Shown here piece by piece: positions 30,471 through 39,229 of a DNA stretch of 64,000 nucleotides. The stretch covers positions 1 through 64,000 of the forward strand of contig CAIWKE010000035.1 of assembly GCA_903913215.1 (NCBI GenBank). The letters run 5' to 3'. Both the position numbers and the translations under genes were made by a program. This DNA comes from an uncultured Holophagaceae bacterium (GTDB taxonomy: Bacteria > Acidobacteriota > Holophagae > Holophagales > Holophagaceae). A model generated the notes under the pieces. The model searched no databases. It was not told where the DNA came from and was given only the letters and a program-made list of their open reading frames with translations. Position 1 is the stretch's first letter, and each line of letters begins with the position of its first letter.

Positions 30471-30547
30471 GGTCCCTTAGCTCAGCTGGTTAGAGCATCT
30501 GACTCTTAATCAGAGGGTCCCCGGTTCGAGTCCGGGAGGGACCACCA
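30471..30547 (+). tRNA. tRNA-Lys(CTT)
   Basis: GGTCCCT...AGGGACC acceptor stem, anticodon loop CTCTTAA, T-arm GGTTCGAGTCC, encoded CCA. Confidence 0.97.
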
Positions 30548-30550
30548 GCA
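30499..30550 (+). repeat. Left attachment repeat (attL) within intact tRNA-Lys
   Basis: CTGACTCTTAATCAGAGGGTCCCCGGTTCGAGTCCGGGAGGGACCACCAGCA. Confidence 0.95.
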
Positions 30551-30556
30551 ACAGAA

Positions 30557-30585
30557 CCGCGTGGAAGCTGAGCCACGCGGTTTTT
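30557..30585 (+). terminator. Rho-independent terminator of tRNA-Lys (copy 1)
   Basis: CCGCGTGG-AAGCTGAG-CCACGCGG-TTTTT. Confidence 0.9.
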
Positions 30586-30822
30586 GTTTGTACACCTATC
30601 TAGGGCGCGATTTCTGCCGTTGTCACACCCTTGTCCCACTCTGGCGAAATCCTCACCGGGCCGATTTCGCCATTGTCGCCAGCTAGACCCAGGCCCGGCG
30701 CGGTTCCCATGGAATACGAACCGGACATGGTTTTTTTTAGCTAGCTAGCTGGACCGGGCGGTATGCAGCGATACCCGCCACCAGGGCGCCCCGGGAGAAC
30801 CTAGCCGCGCGGCACCTTCGGG

Positions 30823-31305
30823 TTACCGCCTGGCCTTCATATCCCGGCGCATCACCTTTTCGACCTGGCGCATCGAATAGCCCTTGGCCGCATACATCGG
30901 CGCCAGCAGCCCGGCCACGATCCCACGATCAAAGGCATGGGCCGTCTGTGAGGACTGATAGGCCAGCTTCCAGCAGGTCCGGCACTGGTAGTCCACCAGC
31001 TGGGGCGGCGCGTAGAGCTTCCGGCACTTCCGCCCGCACCCTGGGCAAAGCAACCAGAGGGACCGCCCCCCGAATCGTGGTTCCCAGAATCGGATCTGGA
31101 TCCACACATCGGCCTTCCACCCGCCCATGGCGCCTTGCAGCACCACAAAGAATTCGTCGCCCTGCTTCTCTTGGCGGATCTTCCAGGTCCCGCCCCAGAC
31201 GTTCGCACTCACCGCCCCGCCAGGCAGCACCTGGACACAGACGCACGATTCCACCGTTCGCGCCTTCCTGTGGCCGTCCCATCGTCCGCTTCCCGATCCG
31301 CCCAT
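30823..31305 (-). CDS. Uncharacterised zinc-ribbon protein with MGGxGSGRW N-terminus
   Basis: MGGSGSGRWDGHRKARTVESC; CPGCGRKCRKLY...CRTCWKLAYQS two CxxC knuckles. Confidence 0.75.
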   Translation of the reverse strand: MGGSGSGRWDGHRKARTVESCVCVQVLPGGAVSANVWGGTWKIRQEKQGDEFFVVLQGAMGGWKADVWIQIRFWEPRFGGRSLWLLCPGCGRKCRKLYAPPQLVDYQCRTCWKLAYQSSQTAHAFDRGIVAGLLAPMYAAKGYSMRQVEKVMRRDMKARR

Positions 31306-31475
31306 TCACACCGCCAGTTTTCCAAAATCCCTTGGGTTTATTCCACTGTCACCGGCCTGTTTCCGGGCCTTAGATCCGCGCCAGCATTGGTTTCCAGCGG
31401 TTTCGCACTCTCCGCACTCTTTACCCTGGTTTAGCCCTGTTCCCGGCACCGTAGCCCCCCGTCCCCGGGCCATCC

Positions 31476-31859
31476 CTAGCACCGGCGCGGGTTTGATCGT
31501 GTTTGATTAGGTTGAAAAGGCGTCCGGCGCGGCCCTTTTTGGGATCCCATGGCCGCCCGGCGCCTGGCGCCCTGTTCCGCCTCAGCATCCCGACAGGCCC
31601 GCAGGGCGTCCGGGTGGACAAGGTGGGCCAGGTAGTCCGGGAAGGTAGTCACCCGGGATTCGGCCAGGCTGGATTCATGGGCGGCCCATGCTTCGGCGTC
31701 CGCTTCCAGCAGGGCCAGCAGGGCGGGCCGGTGTTCGGCGATCAGGGCCAGCAGCTGGGGCGGCGGTTCCCCGGCACCCGATAGCCGCAGCCCACCAGGT
31801 CGAAGGGACAGGCGGAAGCCCAGCCCCTCGACCTGGCCCAGCACTTCGGGCGGCGTCAC
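31476..31859 (-). CDS. Small protein with TubC_N-like docking domain
   Basis: EVLGQVEGLGFRLSLRPGGLRLSGAGEPPPQLLALIAEHRPALLALLEA resembles TubC_N-type; start overlaps stop of the primase/helicase gene by 4 bp. Confidence 0.65.
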   Translation of the reverse strand: MTPPEVLGQVEGLGFRLSLRPGGLRLSGAGEPPPQLLALIAEHRPALLALLEADAEAWAAHESSLAESRVTTFPDYLAHLVHPDALRACRDAEAEQGARRRAAMGSQKGPRRTPFQPNQTRSNPRRC

Positions 31860-34489
31860 AGGTCCATCCCGAAGGTTTCACCCGACACGGCAGGCAGGCG
31901 GAAGGTATCTGTCTCATTAGATCCCCCCCCTACCTCACCCGCTACCCCGCTACCTTTCAACACTGGCGCGGTTCTAGCGGTTGCCCCTTGGTTGCGGGTA
32001 GCGGGCGCAGGCGCTACCCCGCTACCTGAGACGGTTGCGGGTAGCGGCAGGGTTGCCCCCCCGATTCCCTGGGCGCTACCTTCAGATCCGCGCCGTTGCT
32101 CACTTGTAGCGGGTAGCCCCTCAATTGCCCCCCCTGGCGGAAGGTCTAGGTAGCGGTCAAAGGTGTCCTTGAACTGTTCCAGGGCATAGCCCTTCAGGGT
32201 TGCCCCCGTTGGCAGCTTCAGATCCTTGGATTTGATCAGGTAGGGCTTCAGCATCCGGGACAGCTGGCTAGGTGTCATCTGCCTGCCGTGGTCGAAGGTG
32301 TGCCAGGGCTTGAGGTCATCGGCTACCAGTTCCTTGATCAGATCCGCCGTGGGCAGCTTAGGGTTCAACAGGCCGGAAGGATTCCGCTTGGTGAAGGCGT
32401 CCCGGATATCCGCCAGCAGCTGGCCCGCCAGGGACATCGGTTCCTGTTCCACACCCGCCAGCTTCAGGGCAGCGGCCCGGGCCATACCCGGCCACCGTCC
32501 GCCCGCGTGGTCCGCTATGGCCAGCAGGGGTTCCCAGTTGTCTTGGGCGCGGTCATTCAGGGCATCCGGCAGGGCAGGGCGGGCCTGTTGGATAGCAGCA
32601 CCGGCGGCGTCGGCATAGGTCGCCAGCATGGACGCCAGGCGCTCAAATCGGGCCGGGTTGGCATGGCGCAGGCGCTGGACTGATTCGGATTTCAGCTTCC
32701 GGCGCAGTTCCAGGACCACCGCCCGGTCCATGAGGGTCCCGGCCAGGTGCCCGATACCAGACAGGGCTTTGGCGCCCCAGGTGCTGAACCGTTGCGGCTC
32801 ATGGTCATCTCCCACGGTTCGGATGACATAGGCCGATTGCCGGGTGTGGCCCGAATTGATCACGCCCCGCAGTTCCTCGTTTTCCTTCAAGAATGAATCG
32901 GCCTCATCAATCATTAAGGTGGGCTTGTGGGCTTCGATCACCCGGAACACGGCAGCGGGTGAGATGTTCGACGCCACCAGCGGGCGGCAGGCAAGGCGGC
33001 CCAGCAGGTCCAGGAACTGAGTCTTGCCGCACCTGGGTTCCGGCGCCGTGATAACGGCCAAGGGCGCCACCTGGACGGCATCAATAAACCAGGTGAAGGA
33101 AGCCCAAAGGGTCCCGGCTATCGCCACCTCTTCATCACAGACGATGAAGGTCTGAATCGTCGCCATGATTTCATCTAGCAGCTGCGAAGGGACAACAGGC
33201 CCGGGCCAGAGGTCTGTCTGTGGGCACAGGGCAGGCGCCCCGCCGTTCTTGCCTTCGGCGGCCTTCTTCGGCCTGGCGTCCTTCACCAGTCCATCCAGCA
33301 CACTCACCCGGCAGCCCAGGATTTCGGCTTCGGCATCCCGCACCTTTTCGTAATCCAGGGTGTGCAGGTCCGCCAGGCGCTTGATCGTCGCCCCATGCCC
33401 CGCCAGCTCGCCGGGTTCTTCGGCTTCCTCTGTTTCCGGCGCCTGCCTCGGTTCGGCATATTCCAGCAGGTTGATCGACTCATCACCTTGGGCGGCCTTC
33501 AGCACGTCCGCCAGCCCCAGGATCCCTTCATGGCAACCATGGGAACAGGACCAGGTGGGCCACCGGCCCGCCTCATGGATGATGAATCCCGAATCATCGT
33601 CCACCTTGCCGGTGTGGTCCTCATACCACAGGCAATTGGTCCGCCAGCGGGATCCCTTCTTGGCGCCCTGTTTCATGTATGGGCGCTCAGGGCCTACCGG
33701 CACCTTCAGGGCCACCAGCAGATCCGCCAGGCGAAGGGTGCTGAGTTCCACAGGCAAGGGCGCGGCCCAGGAAAAGCCTTCTTCCTTCCGCTTTGCCCGT
33801 TCCCTTTCGATATGGGGCAGGACAGGCAGGGCCGGGACTTCCACCGTGGCCAGTTCTTCCAGCGGGATCGCCAGGGCATCGCCCGGGACCTCTTCCCGCT
33901 TGATCGCATCGGCGCCGTTCGGATGGCCTGGCAGGAAGTAGATCCGCGCCACGTCGCGCAGGGCGGACATATCCAGCCCCCGGCGGGTGCCGTTTAGGCC
34001 AAGGTGGGCCAGTGCCCATTCCGTCGCCTGGTGCCATTGGTCCGCAGGGACCGGACTGGCCAGGGCCACGATAGCCCGGTGCTTCGGCCATCCTGCGCTG
34101 TCGCTCCAGGTCGTCCACTGGTAGGCCAGCACACCCGCAGCCCATAGGGCTTCATTCACTTCCTGAAGGGTCACCGGGTTTTCTATCATCACCTTCCGGG
34201 TGACCTGGCGCCCCCGCTTGTCGATCTGGCCCGGGACCACCTCATCGCGTCCGTTGTCATAGTCCAGCCCCAGCAGCTGGATCGCCTGGGCCTCATCCTT
34301 GCCCCGGTGCTGCGGGTCAAACCTGGCGCCAGCAATTGCCGGCAGTCCCTTCTTCGGGCTATCGCCCTTCGGCACCTGGCGCGGCGTGTTTGTCCGCCCA
34401 AGGATGGCCAGCAGGTCCGCCCAGGTGCCATCAAAGGGCTTCGGCAGATTGTCTTGGGCATGGGTGAAGAATGAACAGGTGAGCTTCAT
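31856..34489 (-). CDS. Replication protein: N-terminal AEP-like primase region fused to a DUF3631-type helicase/ATPase
   Basis: LLGLDYDNG and HRAIVALASPVPADQW in the N-terminus; APEPRCGKTQFLDLL, PTLMIDEADSFL, DRAQDNWEPLLAIADHAGG in the DUF3631-like part. Confidence 0.82.
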   Translation of the reverse strand: MKLTCSFFTHAQDNLPKPFDGTWADLLAILGRTNTPRQVPKGDSPKKGLPAIAGARFDPQHRGKDEAQAIQLLGLDYDNGRDEVVPGQIDKRGRQVTRKVMIENPVTLQEVNEALWAAGVLAYQWTTWSDSAGWPKHRAIVALASPVPADQWHQATEWALAHLGLNGTRRGLDMSALRDVARIYFLPGHPNGADAIKREEVPGDALAIPLEELATVEVPALPVLPHIERERAKRKEEGFSWAAPLPVELSTLRLADLLVALKVPVGPERPYMKQGAKKGSRWRTNCLWYEDHTGKVDDDSGFIIHEAGRWPTWSCSHGCHEGILGLADVLKAAQGDESINLLEYAEPRQAPETEEAEEPGELAGHGATIKRLADLHTLDYEKVRDAEAEILGCRVSVLDGLVKDARPKKAAEGKNGGAPALCPQTDLWPGPVVPSQLLDEIMATIQTFIVCDEEVAIAGTLWASFTWFIDAVQVAPLAVITAPEPRCGKTQFLDLLGRLACRPLVASNISPAAVFRVIEAHKPTLMIDEADSFLKENEELRGVINSGHTRQSAYVIRTVGDDHEPQRFSTWGAKALSGIGHLAGTLMDRAVVLELRRKLKSESVQRLRHANPARFERLASMLATYADAAGAAIQQARPALPDALNDRAQDNWEPLLAIADHAGGRWPGMARAAALKLAGVEQEPMSLAGQLLADIRDAFTKRNPSGLLNPKLPTADLIKELVADDLKPWHTFDHGRQMTPSQLSRMLKPYLIKSKDLKLPTGATLKGYALEQFKDTFDRYLDLPPGGAIEGLPATSEQRRGSEGSAQGIGGATLPLPATVSGSGVAPAPATRNQGATARTAPVLKGSGVAGEVGGGSNETDTFRLPAVSGETFGMDL

Positions 34490-34848
34490 TTGGCACCGTC
34501 CCCGCGATAGATCCGCACCCGATCCCCGGCGCCCTTGCGCTCAAGGGACTGGATCAGTTCCGCACCAAACAGGCTCCCGGCGCTCATGGGATCAAAGACA
34601 AGGGTGCTGTCTGGGTCCAGCCAAACCTTCACCCGCCCCGCCATGAGTCGCGTATTGGCGTCCATGATGAAAATTTCAATCCCGATGCCAGTGCAGCGGG
34701 CGGCCTGGGCCAAGATCCGATCCGCGTGGACATCCACATCGGCCTGGTTCAGTCCGTCCTCTGTCTTGTCCACACCGGACAGGAAGGAGGGAATCATCAA
34801 AATGCCCGTCCCGCGATAGGGCTTCCGCTTCTTCTTCGCCTTGGCCAT
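34486..34848 (-). CDS. Hypothetical protein (element gene)
   Basis: MAKAKKKRKPYRGTGILMIPSF...; in-frame ATG at 34848; stop overlaps the start of the primase gene. Confidence 0.6.
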   Translation of the reverse strand: MAKAKKKRKPYRGTGILMIPSFLSGVDKTEDGLNQADVDVHADRILAQAARCTGIGIEIFIMDANTRLMAGRVKVWLDPDSTLVFDPMSAGSLFGAELIQSLERKGAGDRVRIYRGDGAK

Positions 34849-34849
34849 C

Positions 34850-35113
34850 TCAGCCCGCCTTCCGCACGTCATGCTCGGAAGTAGAGGCGCCCGAATGGGC
34901 CTCGCACCAGGCGGCCAGTTCGGCGGGTGTGTAGCGGACGCGGTTGCCCAGCTTGATGAATCGCGGGCCGGTGCCCTTGCATCGCCATTCGGCCAGGGTC
35001 CATTCCGACAGGCCAAGGAAGGCGGCGGCGGCCTTGGGATCTAGCAGGGCACCGCCAGCGGGCGGGTGTGTTTCGGCAGGTTTGGACATCTGAGCCTCTG
35101 AATTGGGCCGCAT
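34850..35113 (-). CDS. AlpA/MerR-type helix-turn-helix protein (putative excisionase/regulator)
   Basis: LLDPKAAAAFLGLSEWTLAEWRCKGTGPRFIKLGNRVRYTPAELAAWCEAH. Confidence 0.82.
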   Translation of the reverse strand: MRPNSEAQMSKPAETHPPAGGALLDPKAAAAFLGLSEWTLAEWRCKGTGPRFIKLGNRVRYTPAELAAWCEAHSGASTSEHDVRKAG

Positions 35114-35247
35114 GAGGAATTCATGGGCTATTCATAGGCTCGGGTTGGGTTGCCCCCCCATCTAGGCGGCCCTGCCGACACTATTTTTCAGGCGTGATTC
35201 CGCAGGATCACCGGCACAAAATCCAGGGCGTGATTCCGGGTGTTTCC

Positions 35248-35964
35248 CTAAAAGGGAAGGGCAGCTATCTGTTCCTTGATCCTGTCCATTTCGGTCTGTC
35301 CCCAGTCCTTGCCTACCACTTCACCTGTGGCCCAGGTGTGGACGGCCTGGGCAATAGGCATGACGTGGGAGATTGGCCGGTCCTTGGCAATGTGAAGTTC
35401 GAACCGAAGGCACTCGATAAGGCGATGCTTCGCCCCGGACTTCACCTGCTGGGTTTGGGTGGGCGTCCGCTTCCCTTTTGGTTCGGCCTTCCGGGTTGCC
35501 GTATGGCCCGCCACATCGTCCAAAAACGTTGCCAGGGCGCCTAGTTCATAGCCCCGCATATCGTCATGCCCCCACCAGGGTTCTTCCTGTTCTGGCACAC
35601 CTTCATCGTCGAACGAATACCGCCCAATATTGAACCAGGGCCAGGGATCTGCGGCCTTCCCGATCCGCGAGTGGGCATCGTTCTCGATAGCGTCCAGGGC
35701 AGGGCGTGAGACGTTCGCCAGTTTGTGCCGCAGGGTCCGGGCACACTCGGCGATAGCCTTCAGTTCCTGTTCCACCTTCCAGGGCGCCGGGTTGCGCTTG
35801 GGCGGGTCTGCGATTGCCCGGGCGTATTCTGTGGCCTCAAGGGTTATGTCAAACCACCCGACTTCTGCCGTCACGGCTTGATTCTTCGGCAGGCGCGCAA
35901 GGGCCGCCTTCAGGACTTCCAGATCCGCCTTCGCCATGATGCCCGCCCGCCATGCACCCGCCAT
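35248..35964 (-). CDS. Hypothetical protein (element gene)
   Basis: 238 aa ORF in operon orientation; no family recognised; start uncertain. Confidence 0.6.
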   Translation of the reverse strand: MAGAWRAGIMAKADLEVLKAALARLPKNQAVTAEVGWFDITLEATEYARAIADPPKRNPAPWKVEQELKAIAECARTLRHKLANVSRPALDAIENDAHSRIGKAADPWPWFNIGRYSFDDEGVPEQEEPWWGHDDMRGYELGALATFLDDVAGHTATRKAEPKGKRTPTQTQQVKSGAKHRLIECLRFELHIAKDRPISHVMPIAQAVHTWATGEVVGKDWGQTEMDRIKEQIAALPF

Positions 35965-36032
35965 AAAGGCAGCGCGGCAGCTGGTGCGGGAACCAGTGTT
36001 CGGGCCGTCGCCCTAGCCGCGCTGTTCTCAGT

Positions 36033-36284
36033 CTAGGCCGTCTTGAGCCTGTCCCGGCGGATCCCTTGCAGTTCTTCCAGGCCCGCGTTCGCATGGTCCA
36101 CGCCATGCTGGGCCAAGACATCCAGCAGGGCCGCCAGGTCCTCAAGGGGTTGCCCTGTCCATTCGGACGGCCCACCGCCTTCTGTCTCGCCTAACAGGAA
36201 GCCCACACTTCGCAGGGCTTGGAAGTGCTTCCAGGATTGGAACAGGGCCTGTTCAGCGGCCTCGATCCGTTCGTTCTCGCTCAT
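36033..36284 (-). CDS. Hypothetical protein (element gene)
   Basis: 83 aa ORF, start overlaps stop of the upstream RHH-like gene (ATGA). Confidence 0.55.
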   Translation of the reverse strand: MSENERIEAAEQALFQSWKHFQALRSVGFLLGETEGGGPSEWTGQPLEDLAALLDVLAQHGVDHANAGLEELQGIRRDRLKTA

Positions 36285-36496
36285 GCTTCCTCCGATCTGT
36301 TCAACAGATCCTCAAGGGCCACAGGTGCGGGATCACCGGCGGCGGGTTCAAAGGCGGCCCGGATCATCCGGCCCAACAGGCGCCCGGGTGGCACCGCCAG
36401 GCGCTCGCAGGCGGCCCGAAGTAGGGCGGCCTCGCCTTCCTGAAGGCGGAAGGAAACCTGGACTGTCTGGATTTCTGCTTTTGGCCTGCCGACCAT
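36281..36496 (-). CDS. Ribbon-helix-helix-like small regulator
   Basis: VQVSFRLQEGEAALLRAACERLAVPPGRLLGRMIRAAF; first gene of the leftward operon after an AT-rich intergenic region. Confidence 0.6.
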   Translation of the reverse strand: MVGRPKAEIQTVQVSFRLQEGEAALLRAACERLAVPPGRLLGRMIRAAFEPAAGDPAPVALEDLLNRSEEA

Positions 36497-36693
36497 GTAT
36501 CACCTCGCTTCCAACAGGTTAGCGGGAATCCTCGTGCGCGCGAGGGTATTTCTACTTTCGATAACGGCCATTATGTAACCTCAAACGTTTGCTAAGTCCT
36601 TGTATTTCAGCACCGGACTCGCAGGCGTGGAACAATTTCTAATGTTGATAAAGGCGGCCCGATTATAGGCACCTTCAGGGCTAATCGAATGAG

Positions 36694-38085
36694 TCAGGCG
36701 CCCTTGGACTTCGCCTTTTCATCCTTGGCCTTTTTCACTTCCTCGGCTTCCTTCGCCAGATCCACCGATCCGGCCAGCAGGGCGGCCATGCGGGATCCGA
36801 TCACTTCCACGGCATCGCGCAAAGGATCGTTGCCCAGGCGGGCGTATCCCTGGGTAACCGTCCCGGCGCTATGGCCCAGCAGGGCGCCTGTGAAGGCTTC
36901 CGGGTAGCCCAGGCGGGCGCCCAGGCTGGCAAAGGACCGGCGCAGATCATGGATCGTCACATCGGACACATCCACCCGGGCCTTCTTCGGCACTTCGTCC
37001 CGTTCCTGAAGGGTGCCCACGGCATCCCGCACCCGTTCCCAAAAGGTCTGGAGTCCCACCAGGGCTTCCCCTACTGAAAACCCAGGGATCACATAGGGGT
37101 TCCCCAGCACTCGCGGCAGATCCTTCAGCAGCTGGCAGGCCCCTTCACATAGCAGCACGATCCTGGCGCCCGCCTTCTTCGATGTCTTGTGAGAGTCCAG
37201 GCGGATCTGCCCCGCGTCCAGATCCACGGCAGACCAGGGCAGGGCAGGGATAACTTCGATCACCTTGCCGGTTGCCTTGTCGTGCTTCCTGTTCCCGATC
37301 AATTCTGACTTTCGCATCCCGGTTAGCAGGGCCAGGCGCAGGGCCGCCAGGGCGTGGACATCCACAGGGTCCAGGGCTTCCGGGTCCCGTTCTTGGCTAT
37401 CGGGTGTGGGTTCCAGGTGCCGGAAGGCGGCGCCCAGGGCTATCAGTTCCTTGTCTGACAGGTGCCGATCCTTCTTTGTCTCAGGCGCCCGGGCCTGCCC
37501 CTTGGCCGGGTTCGCCCCAGCAGGGCAGTAGCCCCACAGGGCGCCCATGGTGAACATCTTGGAAAGGACGGCCCGCACCCGGTTAGCCATCACACCTTTG
37601 GGCGTGTCCATGCGGATCTGTGAGAGTAGGGCGGCCACATCGGACGGTTCTATGTCCTTCACCCGCTTGGATCCCAGGGCGGGCAGGATCCGCTTTTCCA
37701 GCAGGCGGGCGTATTCGTCGCTTGTGGTTTTCTTGAGCATCGGCAGGTGTTCCTTGGTGAATTGATCCGCCAGGTCCTTCACCGTCTTGGCCGCGCGTTC
37801 GGCCTTCCTCTTAGCTGCGGGATCGTTGCCGTCCCCAATGTCTGCCATCAGGGACAGGGCCTTTTTCCGGGCCAGGGCCACTGTCAGTTCCGGCCAGCGG
37901 CCCAAGGTGTGGGCCTTTTGGTGCCCATGCACCCGGAACCGTAAAACCCAGGACATCACACCGGCGGGCGTTATCTGGATGTTCAGGCCGCGCACTTCGG
38001 TATCAGGCACCCGGATCATGGCCTTTCCAGGCACAAGGGCTTCGACTACTGCTTTGGTGAGATTCACACCCTTCGATTTGCCCAT
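36694..38085 (-). CDS. int: Tyrosine recombinase, P4-type integrase with DUF4102-like arm-binding domain
   Basis: N-terminal LTKAVVEALVPGKAMIRVPDTEVRGLNIQI; catalytic HDLRRSFASLGARLG ... LLGHSAGTVTQGYARL. Confidence 0.93.
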   Translation of the reverse strand: MGKSKGVNLTKAVVEALVPGKAMIRVPDTEVRGLNIQITPAGVMSWVLRFRVHGHQKAHTLGRWPELTVALARKKALSLMADIGDGNDPAAKRKAERAAKTVKDLADQFTKEHLPMLKKTTSDEYARLLEKRILPALGSKRVKDIEPSDVAALLSQIRMDTPKGVMANRVRAVLSKMFTMGALWGYCPAGANPAKGQARAPETKKDRHLSDKELIALGAAFRHLEPTPDSQERDPEALDPVDVHALAALRLALLTGMRKSELIGNRKHDKATGKVIEVIPALPWSAVDLDAGQIRLDSHKTSKKAGARIVLLCEGACQLLKDLPRVLGNPYVIPGFSVGEALVGLQTFWERVRDAVGTLQERDEVPKKARVDVSDVTIHDLRRSFASLGARLGYPEAFTGALLGHSAGTVTQGYARLGNDPLRDAVEVIGSRMAALLAGSVDLAKEAEEVKKAKDEKAKSKGA

Positions 38086-38279
38086 TCCCGCACCTCATCC
38101 GTTGTCCCACTCTTCCGCCATTGTCACACCCTTGTCCCATCCTGGACACAAAATCTGCCCCCATAGGCCCAAAATGGCCTGGGGTTAGGATGGGTGCTTG
38201 TGCTTGCGGAAGCCTATGGATGGTGGGCTTGAGGTAAAACGGCCCGGCCAAAACCTAAAGCGGCCCAATTCAGCTAGAA

Positions 38280-38331
38280 CTGACTCTTAATCAGAGGGTC
38301 CCCGGTTCGAGTCCGGGAGGGACCACCAGCA
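38280..38331 (+). repeat. Right attachment repeat (attR), displaced 3' tRNA-Lys fragment
   Basis: Exact copy of 30499-30550; lacks the 5' half of the tRNA. Confidence 0.95.
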
Positions 38332-38336
38332 CTGAA

Positions 38337-38365
38337 CCCCGTGGAAGCTGAGCCACGGGGTTTTT
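38337..38365 (+). terminator. Rho-independent terminator (copy 2, displaced with the tRNA fragment)
   Basis: CCCCGTGG-AAGCTGAG-CCACGGGG-TTTTT. Confidence 0.88.
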
Positions 38366-38429
38366 GTTTGTACCGGTATGCTGGGTGGAAACCCAGCATG
38401 CATGACTTGATTCACGAACGAGGCAGACC

Positions 38430-38804
38430 TTGACCATCACCTACCAACTCGACGGTAGTCGCGGCGTGATTGTGGAACGCTGGGAGGGGTTCATCTCTGC
38501 GGAGATCCTGCGCCAGCACTGGCAGGATCTCTACACCACCGATGAATACCAGGTCTTCGACAAGACCCTGGTGCTGCTCCAGGAGGCCGTGGCCGGCTTC
38601 CAGGCCGGGGACCTGCTCCCCATTGTGGGGAAAATGGTGGCTCCCCATCGCAAGGCCTCCAGGCGCTGGAACGCCATCGTCGTCGCCACTCCCGAGCAGG
38701 AGTACCTGGCTGGCGTCTACATCCACTCCTGTGGGGATGCCAGCGCCTCGAAGATCTTCCGGGACGAGGTCAGCGCGCTGGCCTGGTTGCAAGAGGCTCA
38801 ATAG
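38430..38804 (+). CDS. SpoIIAA/STAS-like small protein
   Basis: ITYQLDGSRGVIVERWEGFISAEILRQHWQDLY...DEVSALAWLQEAQ, SpoIIAA-like pattern. Confidence 0.6.
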   Translation: MTITYQLDGSRGVIVERWEGFISAEILRQHWQDLYTTDEYQVFDKTLVLLQEAVAGFQAGDLLPIVGKMVAPHRKASRRWNAIVVATPEQEYLAGVYIHSCGDASASKIFRDEVSALAWLQEAQ

Positions 38805-38833
38805 ACTCGGGCCCAAGGCGGATACCATCTGTC

Positions 38834-39229
38834 ATGCCTTACCTCACCGGACTCATCCACGACGGCACAGGAATCCTGAGAACTGGGAAGGGTGTCCTCA
38901 CGGGCGCAGAAATACTGGAGAGCGCCAAGGCTGCTCTGAGCCTGCCCATTGATTTAAGTCGGGTCAACCACACCCTCATGGACCTGTCCAAGGTCACCAG
39001 CTTCAAGATCACGGACGAGGAAATGGCGAAGATCGTCCAGGTCGCCAGCCACAACGTCTTCGAGCAGAACCACCCCTACTTCATCGCCATCGCTGCACCG
39101 GATGACTCCATCTTCAAGGCCTGCCAGGTCTTCCGGGCCATGGAGCAGGCTTCGGGCACCACCCTGCAGATCTTTCGGAGTCTGGCGGACGCCATGGCCT
39201 GGCTCCATACATCCCTGCCCAAGGGCTGA
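38834..39229 (+). CDS. SpoIIAA/STAS-like small protein, possible paralogue of the upstream gene
   Basis: VLTGAEILESAKAAL...IDLSRVNHTLMDLSKVTSFKITDEEM...SLADAMAWLHTSL. Confidence 0.6.
   Translation: MPYLTGLIHDGTGILRTGKGVLTGAEILESAKAALSLPIDLSRVNHTLMDLSKVTSFKITDEEMAKIVQVASHNVFEQNHPYFIAIAAPDDSIFKACQVFRAMEQASGTTLQIFRSLADAMAWLHTSLPKG

Follow-up and report, generated by a model that had tools for sequence, protein, structure and literature searches.

What is a protein domain known from peptide and polyketide synthesis doing next to the replication gene of a small mobile element? The question is raised by a 64,000-nucleotide stretch of the genome of an uncultured Holophagaceae bacterium (assembly GCA_903913215.1, contig CAIWKE010000035.1, positions 1 to 64,000; here called the window), in which an element of 7.8 kb lies in a tRNA-Lys gene. 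Taken alone, the element is an integrated island of an ordinary sort. Its replicase gene is followed directly by a gene for a beta-hairpin docking (bHD) protein, and the C-terminus of the replicase is a short tail of the kind that such domains bind. As a whole, the locus is probably best explained as an integrative element that carries a replicase-docking cassette. From the genes we infer a swappable docking joint between the replicase and an accessory protein, and likewise the excision and replication of the element, the docking itself, the role of the docked protein and the mode of transfer.

A docking protein behind the replicase

The open reading frame (ORF) at 31476-31859 (minus strand) encodes a protein of 127 amino acids (aa), and its GTG start overlaps the stop codon of the replicase gene by 4 nt (GTGA). 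Searched alone against Pfam the protein remained below threshold and gave no match, while a profile of its family, searched against the PDB, retrieved at E<=0.001 only docking domains of non-ribosomal peptide synthetases (NRPS) and polyketide synthases (PKS), namely Kj12A-C, 6cgo, AerJ, EpoB and TubC. Pfam TubC_N is matched by 13 of the 31 members of the family. The AlphaFold2 (AF2) monomer model has the order alpha-beta-beta-alpha-alpha, with a predicted local distance difference test score (pLDDT) of ~95-97 over residues 1-60, and can be superposed to within 1.3-1.7 Å on the domains of Kj12, EpoB and AerJ. Because the family profile, the Pfam matches in relatives and the predicted fold agree, the protein is taken to be a genuine bHD domain. 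Used as a genome probe, the Pfam TubC_N model missed even a known carrier genome, and the family alignment A1 was used instead.

In published work, bHD domains connect the enzymes that make peptides and polyketides. Of the partner they bind just the five C-terminal residues, which join beta2 as an additional strand; the final residue is buried and the charges pair with beta2 residues (PMC6195595, PMC9113145). The window protein shares the fold of this group (TubC_N, PF18563; Kj12, EpoB, TubC, AerJ) and has its partner gene immediately upstream, and this partner, the replicase, has a tail of alternating charged and hydrophobic residues with a terminal V/I/L/F and charges opposite those of beta2. 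NRPS loci caught by the same searches have the same kind of tail. Unlike the NRPS/PKS domains, the window protein is small, stands alone in a mobile element without biosynthetic domains, and has a replicase as its partner.

The replicase (31856-34489, minus strand, 877 aa) is modular, as judged from its relatives. Its C-terminal half is a DUF3631 ATPase (Pfam E=1e-46) found in many proteobacterial and Geobacter-type genomes, its N-terminal half (residues 1-335) occurs in Holophagaceae, and in some relatives the two halves are separate ORFs. An LDYDN motif suggests that the N-terminal half may be archaeo-eukaryotic primase (AEP)-like; a profile search of the PDB gave no match for this half and its AF2 model is poor (pLDDT 47) and lends no support to AEP identity. 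Sister elements have, in place of the helicase part, an AAA_25 protein (L026), a Toprim-DUF3987 protein (L195) or an unassigned ATPase (L023), and the replicases of L215 and L243 are 68-71% identical to the AAA_25 protein of L026. Beside the DUF3631-type replicase of locus L245 (G183 contig C120), two genes of docking type stand near each other; the tails there are basic.

What these replicases have in common is the end. The window replicase terminates in AVSGETFGMDL (codons 31859-31891, minus strand), the proposed docking ligand, and the sister replicases in AVSGDSVTVDL (L023, L215), AVSGEAFTVDL (L195), SVSGDIFTVNL (L243) and AAVGDRYEVDL (L026); a docking gene follows each of the five with the same 4-nt overlap. 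Thus four unrelated replicase types (DUF3631, AAA_25, Toprim-DUF3987 and the unassigned ATPase) share the tail. Among DUF3631 replicases from loci across phyla, a terminal V/I/L/F is found in 32 of 33 with an adjacent docking gene compared with 14 of 45 without one (Fisher p=9e-10), and in 20% of the other long ORFs of those loci. A second, stricter tail motif points the same way (18 of 33 against 5 of 45, p=4e-5).

These observations suggest a mechanism in which the replicase tail would be taken up by the bHD protein as a third strand, as in NRPS/PKS lines, with the terminal hydrophobic residue buried and the tail charges paired with charges of beta2. The docking protein would then ride on the replicase, and its variable C-terminal part would be brought to the replication complex, where it may serve in helicase loading or in the recruitment of host or helper factors. 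Tail and docking gene would form one cassette, and unrelated replicase cores would become exchangeable once they had acquired the tail.

Charge matching of tail and beta2

Charges were scored on the exposed side of beta2, at positions 24, 26 and 28 (Kj12 numbering), and in the tail at -1 and -3; a second measure, using the last five tail residues, gave results in the same direction, as reported or weaker. Over 45 pairs the two charges are anticorrelated (r=-0.68, permutation p=2e-5). Most of the signal is carried by beta2 position 26 (r=-0.72), and not by 24 and 28 as in the NRPS/PKS domains. The window pair has R26 against D at -1, with a terminal L. Full reversal is seen between L095 (tail EEEWPF, beta2 GLTAK) and L109 (tail TIRVTV, beta2 ELEAE), and paired reversals between related docking domains occur in L095/L109, L083/L079 and L044/L058. 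In the family as a whole, a hydrophobic last residue combined with a charge opposed to that of beta2 is a trend.

Such an anticorrelation might be an artefact of shared descent or of genome-wide composition, as the pairs are related and several cells of the comparison repeat similar sequences. The signal nevertheless survives the removal of redundancy at 50% (r=-0.67, n=29, p=6e-5). It is confined to the last ~6 residues, being lost from tail positions -7/-9 upward, and is concentrated at a single exposed beta2 position. It is seen again in nine additional pairs, found with the same profile in a set of 274 other genomes (r=-0.83, exact p=0.024), all of which end in V/I/L/F; these are new data, hand-picked after NRPS-type, duplicate and non-adjacent cases had been dropped, so that the selection was not blind. 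We consider an artefact of this kind very unlikely.

Alternatively, the tail might have no role as a ligand. It would then only mark where a DNA block with the translation start of the docking gene ends, a block preserved by recombination and translational coupling, and the docking protein would bind something else. The tail codons do share GTGA with the docking start, and among the Holophagaceae elements DNA similarity extends over the last ~30 nt. Across phyla, however, the tails differ in sequence yet retain a hydrophobic last residue and a charge of opposite sign to beta2, with paired reversals, and the coupling fades within ~7 residues, which translation signals do not predict. This explanation is unlikely in our view, if a little less so than an artefact of charge.

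Several points weigh against docking of the replicase tail. The salt-bridge positions of the published complexes, 24 and 28, give only r=-0.21 and -0.34. The permutation test leaves phylogeny in, and the support from nearest-neighbour contrasts amounts to just nine opposite against two of the same sign. In some pairs, such as L065, tail and beta2 are both acidic, and just 18 of the 33 docking-linked replicases have the stricter motif. The Foldseek E-values of the docking model are weak (0.016-0.24). Since the DNA of the Holophagaceae elements is similar over the last ~30 nt around the tail, with synonymous differences present, the docking gene may have brought the tail with it in this set.

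Docking of the tail by the bHD protein could be a general, swappable joint in the replication machinery of mobile elements in several phyla, with the NRPS/PKS docking domains as one branch of a wider and possibly mobile-element-derived family; we put this forward tentatively, at slightly less than an even chance. In a replicase, such a joint would put a known domain to a new use. In the open-access literature TubC_N appeared in a survey of fungal peptides and in a megasynthase paper, DUF3631 appeared in a single paper, and a link between TubC_N and DUF3631 was not found, which is weak evidence, as most subscription journals lay outside the search. If the joint is real, a large set of unannotated ORFs beside such replicases would receive a first function, partners could be predicted from sequence, and there would be hints as to how the replication modules of satellites and islands mix and match.

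Insertion site and sister elements

The preliminary description of this DNA had proposed that a mobile element with a replication module is integrated in a tRNA-Lys gene and flanked by a perfect 52-bp direct repeat. The repeat is present at 30499-30550 and 38280-38331, with copies spaced 7,781 bp, and is the sole exact repeat of at least 22 bp at a spacing of at least 3 kb within the window. Past it, homology extends over a further 43 nt (93%), covering the tRNA terminator and reaching 30593 and 38373. The left copy (attL, 30499-30550, plus strand) lies within the 3' part of the target gene, an intact tRNA-Lys(CTT) (30471-30547, plus strand; ARAGORN), and the order trpS-tRNA-Lys is kept across the genus. 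The right copy (attR, 38280-38331, plus strand) is followed by sequence that corresponds to the native tRNA flank of empty sites.

The terminator hairpins of the two ends differ by paired changes that preserve the hairpin, with CCGCGTGG/CCACGCGG at attL (30551-30593, plus strand) and CCCCGTGG/CCACGGGG at attR (38331-38373). In element-free genomes of the genus (L180, L181) the tRNA-Lys gene is followed by the attR version. This, together with the paired changes at attL, suggests that the element brings its own terminator copy and so restores the tRNA gene with its own 3' end and terminator. Just inside both ends are putative arm-type sites of the integrase, two copies of TTGTC[AC]CA 11 bp apart at 30620-30640 and three at 38102-38141 (both plus strand). 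The motif occurs five times in the element against 0.155 expected from shuffled sequences, and pairs with 11-bp spacing are found just inside both ends of the window element and of the sister element L195; the sites fit what is expected of integrase arm sites.

A sister element (L023) in another genome of the genus is likewise inserted at trpS-tRNA-Lys, between copies of the same 52-bp repeat that are 8,027 bp apart. Its proteins are identical to those of the window at 72% (integrase), 75% (RHH-like), 64% (AlpA), 74% (replicase N-half), 65% (docking) and 41% (zinc-ribbon). The tRNA-Lys gene of genome G029 (L181) is joined directly to exo/topA, which are 98.6 and 97.6% identical to those right of attR in L023, and the site in G029 is therefore empty. 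This empty site matches the flank of L023 and not that of the window; none that has the right flank of the window element turned up in genomes of the genus, where that flank is not conserved. In L195 (3005-11127) the element lies at tRNA-Asn with a 46-bp repeat, an integrase 74% identical to that of the window, and the arm-type sites kept, which by sequence comparison is a change of target. With att repeats, integrase, and occupied and empty sites in relatives all found, the element is a site-specific integrative element. The search of relatives for occupied and empty tRNA-Lys sites that had been proposed thus yielded both, and the proposal of an integrated element is supported. Two neighbouring ORFs of ~125-130 aa lie right of attR (38430-39229), in the flank that is not conserved in the genus.

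Gene content and mode of transfer

The main ORFs of the element are all on the minus strand, as first described. At the right end is a P4-type tyrosine integrase (36694-38085; Pfam Arm-DNA-bind_3 E=7e-16, Phage_integrase E=7e-11; also PHROGs), which would insert the element into tRNA-Lys. An AlpA-like HTH_17 protein (34850-35113; Pfam HTH_17 E=8e-9, PHROG excisionase E=5e-11) is likely an excisionase or activator. After excision, the element probably replicates by its own AEP-like/DUF3631 replicase. The labels originally given to integrase, AlpA-like protein and DUF3631 are borne out by Pfam, and TubC_N-like by family profile and fold. For the primase part of the primase-DUF3631 helicase the evidence is the LDYDN motif, and two further labels were given by appearance only: ribbon-helix-helix (RHH)-like for a protein of 71 aa (36281-36496; 73-94% conserved in L023, L195 and L196, no Pfam match, best PHROG E=0.14), and zinc ribbon for a protein of 160 aa with two visible CxxC pairs (30823-31305; homologues in L023, L215, L224, L056 and L257, no family match).

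Names for the small ORFs were sought in Pfam, PHROGs and NCBIfam and none was obtained. The ORF of 120 aa at 34486-34848 has a homologue only in the sister element L023, and that of 83 aa at 36033-36284 has one in L195 (58% identical); neither has an assigned function. The ORF of 238 aa at 35248-35964 is replaced by unrelated ORFs of 230, 242 and 301 aa in L023, L195 and L026. The suggestion that at least five unnamed ORFs could be defence or helper-interference cargo is not supported: PADLOC matched no defence system, one ORF is the docking protein tied to the replicase, and only the slot of the 238-aa ORF behaves like variable cargo.

In agreement with the first reading, which saw no capsid, terminase, portal, relaxase or type IV secretion system gene, the ORFs of the element gave no Pfam or PHROG match to structural, packaging, relaxase or type IV secretion families. 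A PHROG hit to phrog_57, 'terminase small subunit' (E=0.22), is merely the helix-turn-helix of the AlpA-like protein. No packaging, capsid-remodelling or relaxase gene was found that would decide between the two readings originally offered, a phage satellite and a minimal integrative mobilizable element (IME); the satellite-like reading is somewhat favoured.

As a minimal satellite, the element would be excised on a trigger from AlpA, amplified by its replicase and packaged by a helper phage, a lifestyle to which we give about an even chance. An integrase, AlpA and a replicase in ~8 kb without structural genes form the core of phage-inducible chromosomal minimalist islands (PICMI), which also lack capsid-remodelling genes (PMC10803314). 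Of the integrase plus AlpA (PF05930 or PF12728) that mark PICMI, the window element has PF00589 and PF12728, and the sister L195, with a Phage_integrase-type integrase, HTH_17 and DUF3987, has the families of the PICMI model. P4-like satellites likewise combine a P4-type integrase, an AlpA-like regulator and a primase/helicase-type replicase (PMC8628076); the P4 markers psu, delta, epsilon and alpha (PF03288) had no Pfam match among the element ORFs, and sid, which has no Pfam model, was outside the search. On the other side, no packaging or remodelling gene was matched, 50,697 phage records held no close relative, and the host genome had no match to portal family PF04860. Unlike PICMI, which adjoin fis and have a DUF3987/DUF5906 primase, the window element lies in tRNA-Lys after trpS in another phylum and has a DUF3631 replicase. 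Two Pseudomonas 'phage' records (L211, L212; PV029746.1, PP003913.1) were rejected as virion evidence, as they carry ABC-transporter, dehydrogenase or Rhs genes; these DUF3631-type matches filed as phages look like integrated elements of chromosomes.

Transfer as an IME, or as a plasmid-like integrating element using a conjugation system in trans, appears rather unlikely. Autonomous replication genes and tRNA integration would fit, and DUF3631 replicases also occur on Streptomyces plasmids and are mentioned for actinobacterial integrative and conjugative elements in one paper (PMC3218068); the ATPase is of the same family, with 34-37% identity to the Streptomyces/Nonomuraea records. In contrast to those systems, the window element has no conjugation genes and other partner domains; Pfam detected no relaxase among its ORFs, and all three matching plasmid records are classed as non-mobilizable. 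The same genome has a second integrase (G000 contig C18:4902-5915; L002, L040), 50% identical over residues 120-452, which possibly belongs to another element of the family.

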